This document shows, in pieces, positions 17,723-40,364 of a stretch of DNA of 64,000 bases; within the stretch, counting starts at the first letter, position 1, and each line of letters begins with the position of its first letter. The notes beneath the pieces are model-generated. The model was not told the DNA's origin. It saw only the letters and a list, made by a program, of their open reading frames with translations, and ran no database searches. The position numbers were made by a program, and so were the translations under genes. This DNA is from Halpernia frigidisoli (GTDB lineage: Bacteria; Bacteroidota; Bacteroidia; Flavobacteriales; Weeksellaceae), in NCBI RefSeq assembly GCF_900113805.1, contig NZ_FOQT01000004.1, forward strand, positions 248,001 through 312,000, in the 5' to 3' direction.

Positions 17723-17818
17723 TTTTAGCCCCGGGTGAAGCGGCATCCTTTTTTTTATTTCATGGTTTTCTTTCCTGAAAAAATTTTCTTGAAAAAAAAG
17801 ATATAGCGGAACACGGGT
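17723..17818. repeat. REP-like palindromic element (copy A)
   Basis: About 96 bp between pdxA and ribE. One end reads TTTTAGCCCCGGGTGAAGC and the other AGATATAGCGGAACACGGG. Both ends recur in inverted orientation at 36982-37079, with unrelated AT-rich DNA between them. No ORF is inside. The fixed GC-rich ends with a variable centre suggest a REP- or MITE-type element. Confidence 0.65.
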
Positions 17819-17868
17819 AGAGTTTTGGATAATGGCATAAAACGTGGTGCTTCTAAAAAAAAGAATAA

Positions 17869-33058: not shown

Positions 33059-33775
33059 ATGGAAAAAGCCATTTGCAATGTTTCAGTTGCGCCAGTTCGT
33101 GCAGATTCTTCTGATAAAGCGGAAATCGTGACGCAACTTTTATTCGGTGAAAGCCTTTCTGTAATCGAAGTTAAAAATAACTGGACGAAAATTAAAATGG
33201 ATTTTGACGGTTACGAAGGTTGGATGGATACCAAACAATATTCTGTGGTTTCAGACGAATATTTACAAAATAGAAGAACTAATTTAGTAACAGAAAACTT
33301 TCAGTCGCATATTTTAAAAGATGGAAAAATTCTTTTATCCATCGGCTCTGAAGTCGATTTTGAAACTATTTCTACGCAAAGAAGTGAAAATTTAAGACAA
33401 AATATAATCACAACGGCGAAAGAATTTCTAAACGTTCCTTACTTGTGGGGCGGAAAAAGTTTTTTTGGAATTGATTGTAGTGGTTTCACGCAATTGGTTT
33501 ATAAAGTGAATGGAAAAAAAATTCCTCGAGATACGTATCAGCAGGGCGATTTGGGTAAAGTTTTAGATTTCGTGGAAGAAAGTCAGGCAGGTGATCTGGC
33601 ATTTTTTGAAAACTCTGAAGGCAAAATTATTCACGTTGGAATTATGCTAAATTCTCATCAAATCATTCACGCACACGGAAAAGTGAGAATTGATGAACTG
33701 GATTCCACAGGGATTTTTAATAAAGAAAAAAATACGCACACGCATAAATTGAGGTTTGTGAAAAATTTGCTTTAA
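33059..33775 (+). CDS. C40 peptidase with SH3 domains (NlpC/P60)
   Basis: A 238-residue cell-wall endopeptidase. Residues about 1-110 form two bacterial SH3-like modules (PVRADSSDKAEIVTQLLFGE, NWTKIKMDFDGYEGWMD). The NlpC/P60 domain has YLWGGKSFFGIDCSGFTQLVYKVNG with catalytic C140, then HVGIMLNSHQIIHAHG with H192 as the second catalytic residue. It resembles YkfC/Spr-like enzymes that cut gamma-D-Glu-diamino acid bonds. No signal peptide is visible, so it may recycle muropeptides in the cytoplasm. It is followed 12 bp later by the GxxExxY cassette. Confidence 0.92.
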   Translation: MEKAICNVSVAPVRADSSDKAEIVTQLLFGESLSVIEVKNNWTKIKMDFDGYEGWMDTKQYSVVSDEYLQNRRTNLVTENFQSHILKDGKILLSIGSEVDFETISTQRSENLRQNIITTAKEFLNVPYLWGGKSFFGIDCSGFTQLVYKVNGKKIPRDTYQQGDLGKVLDFVEESQAGDLAFFENSEGKIIHVGIMLNSHQIIHAHGKVRIDELDSTGIFNKEKNTHTHKLRFVKNLL

Positions 33776-33787
33776 ATTTTATAAATC

Positions 33788-33824
33788 TTTTTTCTCGCAG
33801 ATTTTGCTGATGACGCAGATTTAA
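33788..33824. repeat. Left terminal inverted repeat of the GxxExxY cassette
   Basis: Read on the minus strand it contains ATCTGCGTC, ATCAGCAAA and ATCTGCGAG in a row, i.e. three 9-nt units, followed by six A. Confidence 0.85.
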
Positions 33825-33838
33825 TACGATACATTTTA

Positions 33839-34222
33839 ATGACTGAAAACGAAATTACTTATATAATTAGAAAGGGAATTTTTAATGTTTATAATGGTTT
33901 AGGGCCAGGTTTATTGGAATCTGTTTATCATAAAATTTTGATTTATGAATTGGAAGATTTGGGTTTAGAAGTAAAGTCTGAAATTCTTTTACCTGTTAAA
34001 TACGGCGAAGTTTTGTTTGATTGTAATTTCAGAATTGATTTATTAATTGAAGATAAAGTAATTGTTGAATTAAAATCCGTGAAAAATTTAGAAGATATTC
34101 ATTATAAACAATTGAATACTTATTTGAAATTATCAGATAAAAAGTTAGGGCTTTTAGTTAATTTCAATACCGATAAAATTTTAGATTCTATAAAAAGAGT
34201 TGCAAACAATTTAGAACATTAA
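33839..34222 (+). CDS. GxxExxY protein, PD-(D/E)XK nuclease-like
   Basis: A 127-residue protein with the diagnostic GLGPGLLESVYHKIL (G24-x2-E27-x2-Y30). The nuclease core is intact: E27, D67 in CNFRIDLLIEDK, E78 and K80 in VIVELKSVKN, and Q91 in HYKQLNTYL, the arrangement expected for PD-(D/E)XK enzymes. The family is commonly annotated as function unknown; nuclease activity is inferred from the motif. It is enclosed by 37-bp inverted repeats and its stop lies in the right one. Codon use is very AT-rich. It may act on its own flanking repeats. Confidence 0.88.
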   Translation: MTENEITYIIRKGIFNVYNGLGPGLLESVYHKILIYELEDLGLEVKSEILLPVKYGEVLFDCNFRIDLLIEDKVIVELKSVKNLEDIHYKQLNTYLKLSDKKLGLLVNFNTDKILDSIKRVANNLEH

Positions 34223-34255
34223 ATCTGCGTCATCTGCAAAATCTGCGAGAAAAAA
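34219..34255. repeat. Right terminal inverted repeat of the GxxExxY cassette
   Basis: Units ATCTGCGTC, ATCTGCAAA and ATCTGCGAG (9 nt each) followed by six A. It overlaps the gene's stop codon (34220-34222). With the left copy it could form a stem of 37 bp, but only across the gene. Confidence 0.85.
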
Positions 34256-34275
34256 TCAAAATTTAAAATCATCCT

Positions 34276-35541
34276 TTGAAGTACCTTTATTACCTATTTA
34301 TCGAACTTTTAATTTCCGGAATGGAGATCTTTTCATTATTTAACGAAAAGACCAAAAAGGGAATCAGAGGCAGAAAGAAGAGTAACAGAATTGTAAAAAA
34401 AGCGTTCAGGAAATCCGACGAAATTATCTGGATGCACGCCGCAAGTCTTGGCGAATATGAACAAGGTTTGCCGGTTTTAGAACTTTTAAAAACGAAATTT
34501 CCAGATTATAAAATATTAGTTACCTTTTTCTCGCCAAGCGGTTACGACAATGTGATCAACAAAAATAATATCGCAGATGCAATTGTTTATTTGCCTTTTG
34601 ATAAAAAAAAGTTGGTAAAAGAATTCACTTCGAACTTCACAACCAAAATATTTTTTACCGTAAAATACGATTATTGGTATAATTTACTGGAAGAATTAAA
34701 ACTTCAGGGCGCCAAAACTTATGTGATTTCTGCATTATTTTACGAAACGCAGGTTTTCTTCAAAACTTATGGAAAATGGTTTTCCAGAGAATTGAGAAAA
34801 AATATTGATTTCTTTTTTCATCAAACTTATCACTCAACTGCTTTGGCAAAAAGTATTGGTTTAAAAAATTCTGTAACGACCGGTGATACGAGGTTTGATC
34901 GTGTAAAGGAGATTTCAAAACGTGATAATTTTGTTCCGTTTATCGAAGAATTTAAAGGCGAAAACCGATTATTTGTTTTTGGAAGTTCGTGGGAAAAAGA
35001 AGAAAAAATTGCGGGAATTATCTCAAAAAAATCAGAAAAAGCCAAGATTATTTTAGTGCCGCACGATTTAAAAAGAATTCCTGATATTAAAGAAAATTTT
35101 CCAGGTGCAATTTTATATTCTCAGACTCAGGATTCAGGATTAAAGATTCAGGATTTTCAAATTTTGATTATTGATTCGATTGGGATTTTATCAAAAATTT
35201 ATTCTTATGCAGATCTAGCCTTTATTGGTGGCGGTTTCCATTCGAGAGGTTTACACAATATTTTAGAAGCGGCGACTTTTGGAATTCCCGTTTTCTTTGG
35301 AAATCAGTACAAGAAAAATCCGGAAGCCGATGATTTAGTGAAAAATAATGGCGCTAAATCTTTTGAAAATGAAATTGATGCTGCAGATTTTTTAATTAAA
35401 ATTTTAGCAGAAAAATCTGGTGAAACTTTAAAGAAAATGGGCGAAAATTCCGCGGAATTTATTCATCTGCAGCCAAACGCAACGCATTTAATTATTGAGA
35501 AAATTACGGAACAACCTACTTTAAAAGTCCCTGAAGTTTAA
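34276..35541 (+). CDS. waaA: 3-deoxy-D-manno-octulosonic acid (KDO) transferase
   Basis: Inner-membrane GT30 enzyme that adds KDO to lipid A precursors. The 421 residues have an N-terminal membrane anchor (KYLYYLFIELLISGMEIFSLF), the acceptor-site motif MHAASLGEYEQGLPVLELLK, GSSWEKEEKIA, and the donor-site GGGFHSRGLHNILEAATFGIPVFFG. The TTG at 34276 is taken as the start because the next ATG (34321) would remove half the anchor. Odd: residues about 282-294 (TQDSGLKIQDFQ) are encoded by a CAGGATT heptamer repeat at 35121-35155. Its 3' end overlaps the convergent neighbour by 26 bp. Confidence 0.93.
   Translation: MKYLYYLFIELLISGMEIFSLFNEKTKKGIRGRKKSNRIVKKAFRKSDEIIWMHAASLGEYEQGLPVLELLKTKFPDYKILVTFFSPSGYDNVINKNNIADAIVYLPFDKKKLVKEFTSNFTTKIFFTVKYDYWYNLLEELKLQGAKTYVISALFYETQVFFKTYGKWFSRELRKNIDFFFHQTYHSTALAKSIGLKNSVTTGDTRFDRVKEISKRDNFVPFIEEFKGENRLFVFGSSWEKEEKIAGIISKKSEKAKIILVPHDLKRIPDIKENFPGAILYSQTQDSGLKIQDFQILIIDSIGILSKIYSYADLAFIGGGFHSRGLHNILEAATFGIPVFFGNQYKKNPEADDLVKNNGAKSFENEIDAADFLIKILAEKSGETLKKMGENSAEFIHLQPNATHLIIEKITEQPTLKVPEV
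35121..35155. repeat. CAGGATT heptamer repeat inside waaA
   Basis: Five 7-mers in register: TCAGACT, CAGGATT, CAGGATT, AAAGATT, CAGGATT. They encode extra residues between the conserved ILYS and ILIIDSIG segments of the KDO transferase. Confidence 0.7.
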
Positions 35542-36897: not shown

Positions 36898-36981
36898 TTA
36901 GAATTTTTACAAATATAAAATTATATAAATAAAATGCTATTTATTTGCAGCAAGACGATTTTGCATCTTTAGAAATGTCTT

Positions 36982-37079
36982 CCCGTGTTCCGCTATATCT
37001 TTTTTTGCTTTCAATATTTCATATAAAAAGATATTTTATTTAGAGCAAAAAAAGGATGTCGCTTCACCCGCGGCTAAAA
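36982..37079. repeat. REP-like palindromic element (copy B)
   Basis: Starts CCCGTGTTCCGCTATATC plus seven T and ends AAGGATGTCGCTTCACCCG then CGGCTAAAA. Both ends match copy A (17723-17818) read on the other strand; the first 25 bases are identical and the last end differs at two positions. The centre differs and has its own hairpin around TTTTTTTGCT/AGCAAAAAAA. Together with the next two repeats it fills most of the 440-bp gap before leuS. Confidence 0.68.
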
Positions 37080-37142: not shown

Positions 37143-37212
37143 TCTCGCAGATTTAGCAGATAACGCAGATTTTGATGCGGTAAAATCTGTTAAATCAAAA
37201 AAATCTGCGAGA
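37143..37212. repeat. Gene-less relative of the GxxExxY cassette ends
   Basis: Two 31-bp arms (37143-37173 and 37182-37212) in inverted orientation, 8 bp apart. The left arm on the minus strand reads ATCTGCGTT, ATCTGCTAA, ATCTGCGAG; the right arm reads ATCTGTTAA, ATCAAAAAA, ATCTGCGAG. The last unit is the same as in the cassette repeats at 33788 and 34219, and the orientation of the two arms is the same. No ORF lies between. Confidence 0.72.
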
Positions 37213-37337: not shown

Positions 37338-40300
37338 ATGTTCTACGACCACCAAGCCATCGAAAAAAAATGGCAAAAATTCTGGAAAGACAACGAAACT
37401 TTTAAAACTTCGGATGATACAAATCTGCCGAAATATTATGTTTTAGATATGTTTCCATATCCTTCTGGCGCAGGTTTACACGTTGGTCATCCATTAGGTT
37501 ACATCGCTTCAGATATTTATGCAAGATATAAAAGACACGAAGGTTTTAATGTTTTGCACCCAATTGGTTACGATTCCTTCGGACTTCCGGCGGAACAATA
37601 TGCAATACAAACCGGGCAACATCCCGCCATTACAACGGAAGAAAATATTACCAGATACGAAGAACAATTGCGTAAAATCGGTTTTTCATTTGACTGGAGT
37701 AGGGAAGTAAGAACTTCAGAACCCAATTATTATAAATGGACACAATGGATTTTTATTGAATTATTTCATTCCTGGTATAATAAATCGACGGACAAAGCTG
37801 AAGCAATTTCTACTTTAATTAATCATTTTGAGAACTTCGGAACAGAAAATTTAAACGCGGCACAAAATGAAACATTAAATTTTACTGCGGAAGAATGGAA
37901 AAATGGGGACGAAAATTATAAGCAGGATATTTTATTAAATTACAGATTGGCTTACAGAGCGGAAACAACTGTAAACTGGTGTCCCGGTTTGGGAACTGTT
38001 TTAGCAAATGATGAAGTAAAAGACGGAAAATCTGAACGCGGCGGATTTCCGGTTTTTCAAAAAAAAATGATGCAATGGAGTATGCGGATTTCTGCCTATT
38101 CTGAAAGATTATTGCAGGGTTTAAAAACAATCGATTGGCCTCAACCTTTGAAAGATTCTCAGGAATACTGGATCGGGAAATCAATTGGAGCGCAGGTCAG
38201 TTTTTCGGTTGATAGTTTACAGTTGTCAGTTGACGGAAATATAAGTTCCGACAACCAACAACCAACAACTGACAACCAAATAGAAGTTTTTACGACGAGG
38301 CCAGACACCATTTTCGGCGCAACATTCATGGTTTTAGCGCCAGAAAATCCTTTGGTAGAAAAATTGACAATTCCAGAACAAAAATCTGAAGTTGAAAATT
38401 ACATTGAACAAACTTCTAAAAAAACAGAACGCGATAGAATGTCTGATGTAAAATCAGTTTCCGGTGCTTTTACAGGAAGTTTTGTTGAAAATCCTTTTTC
38501 GGGTAAAAAAATGCCGGTTTATATTTCAGATTATGTGTTGATGGGTTATGGAACTGGCGCTGTGATGGCGGTTCCGGCGCATGATGAACGCGATCACCGT
38601 TTTGCGAAAAAATTTGGGTTGGAAATTTTAAAAGTGGTAGAAACTGAGGAAGATATCCAGGAAAATTCTTTTGATTCGAAAGATTCTGTTTGCGTGAATT
38701 CTGAATTTTTAAATGGTTTAAATTATAAGGAAGCGAAAGAAAAAATCATCGCAGAAATTGAAAATAAAAAGATTGGTTTTGGAACGATCAATTACCGACA
38801 AAGAGATGCGATCTTTTCCCGACAAAGATATTGGGGAGAACCAGTTCCGGTTTATTATAAAAACGGATTTCCGTACACTTTGCCAGTTTCCGCTTTGCCT
38901 TTAGAATTGCCGGAAGTTGAAAAATATCTGCCTACAGAAGATGGCGATCCACCTTTGGGAAATGCAACTGCTTTCGCCTGGGATGAAGAAAAGTTGTCAG
39001 TTGTCAGTTCTCAGTTGATAGATAATAATACTGTTTTTCCAATTGAACTTTCTACAATGCCTGGTTGGGCGGGAAGTTCCTGGTATTTTTTACGTTACAT
39101 GGATCCGAATGATGAAAGTGCTTTTGTTGCGAAAGAAAAAGCAGATTATTGGGGACAGGTTGATTTATATATTGGCGGAAGCGAGCATGCAACAGGACAT
39201 TTATTGTATTCCCGTTTTTGGAATAAATTTTTAAAAGACCGCGGCTTTATTGAGCAGGAAGAACCTTTTAAAAAACTGATTAACCAGGGAATGATATTGG
39301 GAATGAGTGCGTTTGCATTTAGACTGAAAGCAAAATATTGTGTTAAGTTTTCCTGCGAAAAAAATAATTCATCTGATTTGAAATATTACGTTGAAGAATT
39401 GTTTTTATCAAAAAAAGAAAAAGATCAAACTTTTGATGTTTTCAATAATGTCTTTCTAAAACAAGTTGAAGGAAAATTTATACAAGAGTATCCTCATCAA
39501 AAAGACTATAAAATTGAATTTATTGAATCTGATGCTTTACAAAAAATCCACGTTGATGTTTCTTTATTAAAAGGAACATCAGATGAATTAGATATCGAAA
39601 AATTTAAAAACTGGCGTTTAGAATATGCTAACGCAGAATTTATTTTAGAAGATGAAAAATACATCGTAGAAAGAGAAGTCGAAAAAATGTCGAAATCCAA
39701 ATATAATGTTGTTAATCCTGATGAGATTTGTGAAGAATTTGGCGCCGATTGTTTAAGACTTTATGAAATGTTCCTTGGTCCTTTAGAACAATCAAAACCT
39801 TGGAATACGCAAGGTTTGACGGGCGTTTATGGTTTCCTTAAAAAATTCTATAACTTATATTTTAACGAAGATCAATTAGAAATTTCTGAGGAAGAACCCA
39901 CGAGAGCGGAATATAAAACACTTCATACTTTAATCAAAAAATTAAGTACAGATCTGGAAAATTATTCTTTCAATACTTCTGTTTCTTCTTTCATGATCGC
40001 GGTCAATGAATTTCAAAAATTTAAAACGAATAAAAGAAATATTTTAGAACCACTTGCAATTTTAATTTCGCCTTATGCACCGCACATTGCAGAAGAATTG
40101 TGGTCGAAATTAGGTAAAGAAAAAAGTATCGAATTTGAAACCTTTCCAGTCTTTGATGGGCAGTATTTAGTGGAAGATAATTTTGATTATCCAGTGAGTT
40201 TTAATGGTAAAATGAGGTTCAAAATATCGTTGCCAACTTCACTTTCAAGAGAAGAAATAGAAAAATCTGTTTGCGAGGAGGCTAAAACCGGAGAATATTT

Positions 40301-40364
40301 GGCTGGAAGTACACCAAAAAAGATAATTATCGTGCCTAATAAAATAGTTAATATCGTTTTCTAA
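37338..40364 (+). CDS. leuS: Leucine--tRNA ligase
   Basis: Class I synthetase that charges tRNA-Leu, with an editing (CP1) domain. At 1008 residues it is longer than most bacterial LeuRS (about 860-940). HIGH motif: SGAGLHVGHPLGY near residue 45. Editing site: TTRPDTIFGATFMVLAPE. KMSKS: VEKMSKSKYNVVNPDEI near residue 785. Extra length comes from several places: residues about 291-314, encoded by a 71-bp palindrome (38207-38277); residues about 552-561, encoded by AGTTGTC heptamers (38992-39019); and a long lysine-rich segment before QKIHVDV. The frame stays open throughout. Confidence 0.96.
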   Translation: MFYDHQAIEKKWQKFWKDNETFKTSDDTNLPKYYVLDMFPYPSGAGLHVGHPLGYIASDIYARYKRHEGFNVLHPIGYDSFGLPAEQYAIQTGQHPAITTEENITRYEEQLRKIGFSFDWSREVRTSEPNYYKWTQWIFIELFHSWYNKSTDKAEAISTLINHFENFGTENLNAAQNETLNFTAEEWKNGDENYKQDILLNYRLAYRAETTVNWCPGLGTVLANDEVKDGKSERGGFPVFQKKMMQWSMRISAYSERLLQGLKTIDWPQPLKDSQEYWIGKSIGAQVSFSVDSLQLSVDGNISSDNQQPTTDNQIEVFTTRPDTIFGATFMVLAPENPLVEKLTIPEQKSEVENYIEQTSKKTERDRMSDVKSVSGAFTGSFVENPFSGKKMPVYISDYVLMGYGTGAVMAVPAHDERDHRFAKKFGLEILKVVETEEDIQENSFDSKDSVCVNSEFLNGLNYKEAKEKIIAEIENKKIGFGTINYRQRDAIFSRQRYWGEPVPVYYKNGFPYTLPVSALPLELPEVEKYLPTEDGDPPLGNATAFAWDEEKLSVVSSQLIDNNTVFPIELSTMPGWAGSSWYFLRYMDPNDESAFVAKEKADYWGQVDLYIGGSEHATGHLLYSRFWNKFLKDRGFIEQEEPFKKLINQGMILGMSAFAFRLKAKYCVKFSCEKNNSSDLKYYVEELFLSKKEKDQTFDVFNNVFLKQVEGKFIQEYPHQKDYKIEFIESDALQKIHVDVSLLKGTSDELDIEKFKNWRLEYANAEFILEDEKYIVEREVEKMSKSKYNVVNPDEICEEFGADCLRLYEMFLGPLEQSKPWNTQGLTGVYGFLKKFYNLYFNEDQLEISEEEPTRAEYKTLHTLIKKLSTDLENYSFNTSVSSFMIAVNEFQKFKTNKRNILEPLAILISPYAPHIAEELWSKLGKEKSIEFETFPVFDGQYLVEDNFDYPVSFNGKMRFKISLPTSLSREEIEKSVCEEAKTGEYLAGSTPKKIIIVPNKIVNIVF
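38207..38277. repeat. Palindromic heptamer repeat inserted in frame in leuS
   Basis: Two 32-bp arms (38207-38238 and 38246-38277) form an imperfect inverted repeat (23 of 32 positions) around a 7-nt loop. Each arm is built of 7-mers: left AGTTTAC, AGTTGTC, AGTTGAC; right, on the minus strand, GGTTGTC, AGTTGTT, GGTTGTT, GGTTGTC. It encodes VDSLQLSVDGNISSDNQQ and adjoining residues just before the conserved IEVFTTRPD. Confidence 0.78.
38992..39019. repeat. AGTTGTC heptamer repeat in leuS
   Basis: Four 7-mers: AGTTGTC, AGTTGTC, AGTTCTC, AGTTGAT, encoding LSVVSSQLID. Same family as the palindrome at 38207-38277. Confidence 0.7.

Follow-up and report, generated by a model that had tools for sequence, protein, structure and literature searches.

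In the genome of Halpernia frigidisoli, a gene for a predicted PD-(D/E)XK nuclease of the GxxExxY family stands between inverted copies of a short repeat that is also dispersed, without the gene, over the rest of the genome. We consider it likely that the two form a REPtron-like pair, that is, a resident PD-(D/E)XK gene and its cognate family of short palindromic repeats. The pairing of gene and repeat is very probably functional, and direct recognition of the repeat units by the protein appears probable from the sequence comparisons given below, whereas the chances that cutting by the nuclease is what spreads the repeats, which we infer, are about even.

A nuclease gene between inverted repeat arms

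The window, by which we mean the whole analysed stretch of 64,000 nucleotides (contig NZ_FOQT01000004.1, positions 248,001 to 312,000), contains an intact GxxExxY gene between two 38-nt arms that are 97% complementary (one mismatch) and lie 392 nt apart (Table 1). The ATG at 33839 follows the left arm after 13 bp and the TAA (34220-34222) falls within the right arm. A reading of this DNA from its sequence only had already described the inverted repeats, which are real and one base per arm longer than the 37 bp it gave; it had placed the stop codon correctly in the right arm and, with its shorter left arm, put 14 bp between arm and ATG; its statement that the unit lacks a transposase is confirmed, none being found inside the arm-gene-arm unit. 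The arms read TCTCGCAGATTTTGC[A/T]GATGACGCAGAT and contain neither GTAG nor GTGG. Their 24-nt core, allowing up to 3 mismatches, occurs 3 times in the window. When the whole window was dinucleotide-shuffled 100 times, the core never appeared, and a chance origin of the arms was rejected on this ground. The third occurrence is a gene-less hairpin upstream of an open reading frame (37338-40364) that we take to be leucyl-tRNA synthetase-like. Separately, two Flavo-1 RNA matches (RF01705) were observed in the window, at 17723-17824 (+) and 36975-37079 (-), the latter near the gene-less repeat at 37143.

Table 1. Coordinates within the window of the GxxExxY gene, its repeat arms, the second repeat copy and the neighbouring genes.
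Feature	Position	Strand	Remarks
Left inverted-repeat arm	33788..33825	+	three ~9-bp units, TCTC-GCAGATTTT-GCTGATGAC-GCAGATTT
GxxExxY gene, 127 aa, predicted PD-(D/E)XK nuclease superfamily	33839..34222	+	PF13366, TIGR04256
Right inverted-repeat arm	34218..34255	-	GxxExxY stop codon inside
Gene-less hairpin (REPIN-like)	37143..37212	not assigned	second copy of the window repeat family
SH3 + NlpC/P60 protein	33059..33775	+	upstream neighbour of the GxxExxY gene, synteny marker
Kdo-transferase (waaA-like)	34276..35541	+	downstream neighbour of the GxxExxY gene, synteny marker

The encoded protein is a full-length member of TIGR04256/PF13366 (E 2.2e-38 and 131.2 bits against TIGR04256, cut-off 35; E 4.8e-38 and 130.6 bits against PF13366, cut-off 22). 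PDDEXK_3 was the only Pfam domain matched at E <= 0.001, and the protein sequence lacks an HxH motif. E27, E77 and K79 never vary across 76 aligned sequences, and conservation of D67 and Q91 is at least 90%; E27, D67 and Q91 had been named beforehand as nuclease-type residues, whereas the residues then numbered E78 and K80 are E77 and K79. An AlphaFold model (mean pLDDT 93, pTM 0.87) gave VIA structure matches led by PD-(D/E)XK proteins (SSO0001, 4ic1, Z 9.2; 3ijm, Z 8.4), with restriction enzymes and Hjc resolvases following at a middling Z of ~6-7. Foldseek returned nothing from the PDB at E <= 0.001 (best E 3e-3), and no solved structure was matched by sequence at E <= 1. Sequence and modelled fold together identify the gene product as a predicted PD-(D/E)XK nuclease of the GxxExxY family. 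With a median dN/dS of ~0.09 (13 orthologs; 42 finite of 78 pairs), the gene is, by this estimate, under purifying selection; decay also occurs in the family, with in-frame stops in several GxxExxY genes (L073, L093, L099, L114 and others) despite purifying selection on the intact ones.

Two other roles were tried and rejected. For a defence system the matches were weak (PADLOC PDC-M36A, E 2.1e-4; Cas4b, 0.0088; PHROG 1706, E 7.6e-5), and for phage or plasmid cargo tblastn with the window protein at E <= 1e-5 drew no match from 50,697 phage records and matched 8 of 72,556 plasmid records. A scan of viral contigs yielded 3 relatives, two of them with an array of at least three repeat units on at least one side.

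The repeat is dispersed through the genome as gene-less hairpins

The 3.02-Mb genome holds 23 copies of the window repeat core at up to 3 mismatches, against 0 for a reversed control, and all 23 are preceded by CTC, a triplet absent from the query. For 18 copies an inverted partner lies 11-57 bp away (16 or more of 24 positions matching), resulting in 14 gene-less hairpins; two of the remaining copies flank the window gene and three are solitary. The repeat centres lie outside open frames of at least 100 codons in 21 of 23 cases; of 1150 points placed at random in these loci, by contrast, 1018 fall inside such a frame. Folded as DNA, five of the 14 hairpins gave z values of -4.79, -2.35, -6.26, -5.34 and -6.43, and for the weakest (z -2.35) 6 of 200 shuffles folded equally well. 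The loop of one element (L014) has TTAATAC in common with the inner flank of the window gene, as judged by eye. Repeats that form hairpins, mostly outside long open frames, might instead work purely as RNA, as transcript-insulating or processing hairpins or as terminators, with no role at the level of DNA. We consider this very unlikely: on inspection, the unit cores of paired arms are kept while the spacers differ, units recur every 8-10 bp, and a consensus scan found no terminator-like site in 33700-34400. The window repeats had no Rfam match at the gathering threshold.

Five GxxExxY genes are present in the H. frigidisoli genome, flanked by inverted repeats of differing sequence (alignment scores of 30, 21, 26, 19 and 15 with 300-bp flanks), those at L004 and L005 being modest (19 and 15). 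For the paralogs L002 and L003, a genome search at up to 3 mismatches found the repeat in 3 places each, only beside its own gene and with no dispersed copies, which indicates that these repeats came with the gene. That observation bears on a different account of the arrangement, in which the repeats spread by other means, such as a RAYT or slippage during host replication, and GxxExxY lands in palindromes that were there already, or guards them. We judge this account improbable, and no less so its guarding variant, in which the enzyme would cut extruded cruciforms as a Holliday resolvase or an SbcCD-like enzyme does, even though the fold matches include an archaeal Hjc (1gef, at a middling Z of 6.7). 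The local repeats of L002 and L003 argue against genes landing in pre-existing genome repeats, and dispersal by the genome's one Y1 transposase-like gene was rejected because a different repeat adjoins that gene. The gene in question (L157, C7:19046-19279) has a Y1_Tnp (RAYT-like) match, and the repeats near it, CCACACGATGCAATCGTGCGGCAGCG, are unlike those of GxxExxY genes.

Gene and repeat co-occur across Weeksellaceae

GxxExxY is present in 90 of the 148 genomes of Weeksellaceae, the bacterial family of H. frigidisoli, and the window-type repeat in 65 of them (control, 0). The two are strongly associated: the repeat occurs in 60 of 90 genomes with GxxExxY and in 5 of the 58 that lack it (Fisher p 5e-13; permuting gene number within genera, 73/5000). 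The association is sharper for the gene's own clade. All 15 genomes with an ortholog of the window gene at >=70% identity, a set that includes two orthologs with a stop (G140, G147) and one partial (G145), possess the cognate repeat, with a median of 11 copies, versus 45 of the 75 other GxxExxY genomes, with a median of 1 copy (permutation within four genera, 1/5000). Repeat copies also occur apart from a close ortholog: G001, of the same genus, has 19 copies and a best match of only 55% identity, and G131, with 24 copies and no GxxExxY match, counts against the proposed pair and in favour of repeats spread by other means.

The repeat multiplies while the gene mostly stays put

The order OMT-NlpC-waaA is widely kept in Weeksellaceae. 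Among 30 NlpC loci from 60 genomes, 22 had waaA in reach, and GxxExxY lies between NlpC and waaA in two of these, the window and G012 alone, whose inverted repeats agree in type; the gene is thus not a constant resident of this interval, contrary to one outcome that the sequence-only reading had envisaged. In G026, GxxExxY has degraded arms and is placed between OMT and NlpC instead. Five NlpC-waaA junctions without the gene, that of G026 included, measure 44-64 bp. A relative from the same genus offers no clean empty site, having at the window locus a degraded repeat (by eye) and two other genes, presumably DUF1648-like and cupin-like. The closest named ortholog (L048, 74% identity) is found at another location, with a hairpin of the same type directly past its stop (by eye).

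The arm-gene-arm layout, seen in the window and in G012, would suit an autonomous element with terminal inverted repeats, the gene-less hairpins being internally deleted, MITE-like derivatives; so would the patchy presence of GxxExxY and the distribution of the 15 close orthologs over about three neighbourhoods, on differing sides of NlpC. We nevertheless hold such an element to be unlikely. In nine genomes, for which 43 of the 56 listed GxxExxY matches were compared, none of the 86 within-genome pairs of compared paralogs reached 80% identity (maximum 65%), and the best identity of a compared protein to one from another of the nine genomes had a median of 85%. Thirteen elements inspected for target-site duplications showed no sign of them (mean match 2.23 versus 2.43 when re-paired), a transposase-type enzyme is absent, and the gene is under strong purifying selection. 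Neighbours are common to 31 of 105 pairs of the close orthologs, and with about three neighbourhoods overall, inheritance looks, from gene order, largely vertical with occasional relocation. An IS-like element as the main reading was rejected on the paralog pairs and the unseen target-site duplications. The suggestion of a minimal mobile element made from the window sequence therefore survives as far as the spread of the repeat is concerned and is not supported for a self-copying gene. By the distribution of its copies, it is the gene-less repeat that multiplies, while the GxxExxY gene mostly stays put.

Modular repeat arrays flank GxxExxY genes in many phyla

From a scan of GTDB contigs for GxxExxY the best 80 of 564 loci were analysed, and these 80 come from many phyla. 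In a motif-free test, the upstream flank was locally aligned with the reverse-complemented downstream flank (250 bp each, threshold score >=15), leaving out one locus with a short flank (L077). Among these best loci, inverted repeats reached the threshold at 37 of 79 GxxExxY genes and at 9 of the 597 other ORFs there, while none of 79 shuffled flanks did so; for direct repeats the figures were 26 of 79 versus 13 of 597. Inverted repeats thus commonly flank GxxExxY genes, in line with what had been suspected from the window sequence, and it is not the case that GxxExxY genes elsewhere lack flanking repeats; the scope then proposed, ATCTGC-type repeats of Flavobacteriales, proved too narrow for a modular kind of repeat present in many phyla. 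Some GxxExxY genes (L207/L150, L144, L061) were observed between long direct repeats with alignment scores of 95-187. Within Weeksellaceae, the inverted test with 300-bp flanks was positive for 19 of 39 profile-found GxxExxY loci, 10 of the 30 closest orthologs of the window gene and 10 of 30 S23 genes; the close orthologs do not exceed S23 genes in this motif-free test.

The flanking repeats of GxxExxY genes are arrays of a common 8-10 bp unit. Certain 7-mers are enriched in their flanks, for example ACGCAGA (32/79 versus 16/485), and the spacing of same-strand units peaks at 8, 9 and 10 bp (146, 126 and 61 occurrences, versus 1-3 in shuffles). With the unit motif, defined like the T/G typing below after inspection of the same loci, strict-unit arrays of at least three within 250 bp were found at 55 of 80 cross-phylum GxxExxY genes and 22 of 69 Weeksellaceae loci, versus 1 of 30 S23 genes and 19 of 478 other ORFs; none of 80 shuffles had one. 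Relaxing the unit raised the counts to 62 of 80 and 38 of 68 Weeksellaceae GxxExxY loci, and those of the controls to 7 of 30 S23 genes and 42 of 480 other ORFs, with 2 of 27 gene-less NlpC loci; an array of at least three units is absent even then from 18 of the 80 cross-phylum and 30 of the 68 Weeksellaceae GxxExxY loci. Of 30 host genomes, 21 contain exact arrays of three CGCARAG units, with 402 matches (some overlapping) versus 1 for a reversed control. The dispersed AG-type array is absent from 7 of 24 hosts selected for AG-type flanks and present in 4 of 6 selected for AT-type flanks.

Repeat type follows the protein tree

We typed the units by their ends (AT, T type; AG, G type) and mapped the types onto a FastTree phylogeny of 141 intact proteins, a tree built on few columns in which 51 of 136 inner branches are open. 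A type was assigned at 93 loci, 40 T and 53 G, which span eight named phyla, apart from three loci of other groups. Across them the type changes only 3 times on the tree; 300 shuffles averaged 30.3 changes and never gave fewer than 22, and shuffles within phyla averaged 27.2, with at least 21. A second character, CG versus CA, shows 8 changes in 88 loci, against no fewer than 19 when shuffled. All 40 T-type loci belong to Bacteroidota. That phylum includes G-type loci as well, and its 75 rows likewise show 3 T/G changes. That the repeat type tracks the protein tree, within Bacteroidota too, again argues against GxxExxY genes settling in or guarding palindromes already in place, and it is as expected if the nuclease recognises its flanking repeats, as the sequence-only reading had thought it may; shared descent of gene and flank could yield part of the agreement. 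Several of the residues that best separate T- and G-type proteins lie in helix 1 (positions 8-19), where T-type proteins have R11, I14, Y18 and N19 and G-type proteins I/V/F, mostly A, H, and a mixture, respectively. Since the few changes on the tree confound such residue/type correlations, helix 1 is put forward only as a hypothetical specificity region.

Comparison with REPtrons and S23 genes

The arrangement closely resembles REPtrons. In the parts of PMC6006769 and PMC8266576 drawn on here, a REPtron is described as a tnpA-REP gene, mostly the only one for its type of REP, with these REPs on its flanks and no evidence of gene movement; REPtrons are patchily distributed, with several types per genome; the corresponding part of PMC3116915 treats inverted REP doublets as the replicating unit. 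To the extent of these accounts, GxxExxY systems share with REPtrons a single resident gene for each repeat type, which is not amplified and has its own repeats on its flanks, and extragenic repeats dispersed as inverted doublets, with several types per genome and a patchy distribution. Such dispersal holds for the window gene, whereas the L002 and L003 repeats differ from REPs in being local. The GxxExxY enzyme is a predicted PD-(D/E)XK nuclease, unlike the HUH tyrosine (Y1) enzyme of REPtrons, whose domain it lacks, the genome's one Y1_Tnp match being elsewhere. The arms, moreover, are arrays of about three 8-10 bp units, those of the window carry no GT[A/G]G tag, and the window repeat reaches copy numbers of tens. 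REP-like types without this tag have also been named, in the part of PMC6006769 used here. Because HUH enzyme and GT[A/G]G tag are lacking, we describe the pair as REPtron-like in its working and not as a REPtron. Two marks of insertion sequences, near-identical gene-bearing copies and target-site duplications, were not found in the paralogs and elements compared.

S23 proteins are four-helix bundles, not nucleases. Their genes (S23/TIGR02436) occur in 84 of 100 genomes of the same bacterial family, with up to 16 matches per genome, and resemble GxxExxY genes in being small, multi-copy and patchy and in having flanking inverted repeats (10 of the 30 loci L217-L246). They differ in their units: the inverted repeats are periodic and AGTAATT- or AGAATAA-like, and direct arrays are TAGGGAC-like. 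With periodic repeats of their own, S23 genes may constitute a third system of this kind in these genomes.

The description of TIGR04256/PF13366 rests the family's name on its motif only, whereas the family is here paired with flanking repeats. In the portions seen of openly licensed full texts, preprints being outside their scope, GxxExxY is named in passing and no adjacent repeats are described. In openly licensed PMC literature PF13366 does occur by name, while neither TIGR04256 nor any of six repeat strings was found, and among PMC articles, mainly their titles, none on a nuclease/repeat pair emerged for REPIN/RAYT in Bacteroidetes, Flavobacterium palindromes or cyanobacterial repeats.

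A proposed mechanism and its implications

As the best single mechanism we propose, at roughly even odds, that the nuclease itself spreads its repeat. The protein, probably as a multimer, would read the repeated units on each arm, an arm being about three units of 8-10 bp, when the palindrome is extruded as a cruciform or forms a hairpin on the lagging strand. The D67/E77/K79 centre would then cut at the outer TCTC/GAGA boundary, and the released or broken hairpin would be copied by host repair into new intergenic places. PD-(D/E)XK enzymes leave free 5'-phosphate and 3'-OH ends and do not rejoin them, and a cut of this kind would fit both the unseen target-site duplications and the low copy number.

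More broadly, GxxExxY could equally well be or not be a second, independent invention of the REPtron, with clade-specific, mutually separate repeat families in many phyla and a modular repeat code of 8-10 bp units that start with CG or CA and end with AT or AG; it is part of this same evenly balanced proposition that GxxExxY nucleases have produced many of the intergenic CGCAAAG/CGCAGA-type repeats seen in Bacteroidota, Cyanobacteria and Planctomycetes. As one genome can hold several divergent gene/repeat pairs and repeat type follows the tree, specificity is testable by swapping proteins and repeats. Our results suggest that a system which maintains or spreads short repeats in DNA has been overlooked. 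They offer a specific hypothesis on what a large nuclease family, present in 90 of the 148 Weeksellaceae genomes, does and acts on, and they name a candidate enzyme for short intergenic repeats that are widespread. If the nuclease does spread the repeats, REP-like parasitism or domestication would have arisen more than once, with unrelated enzymes.
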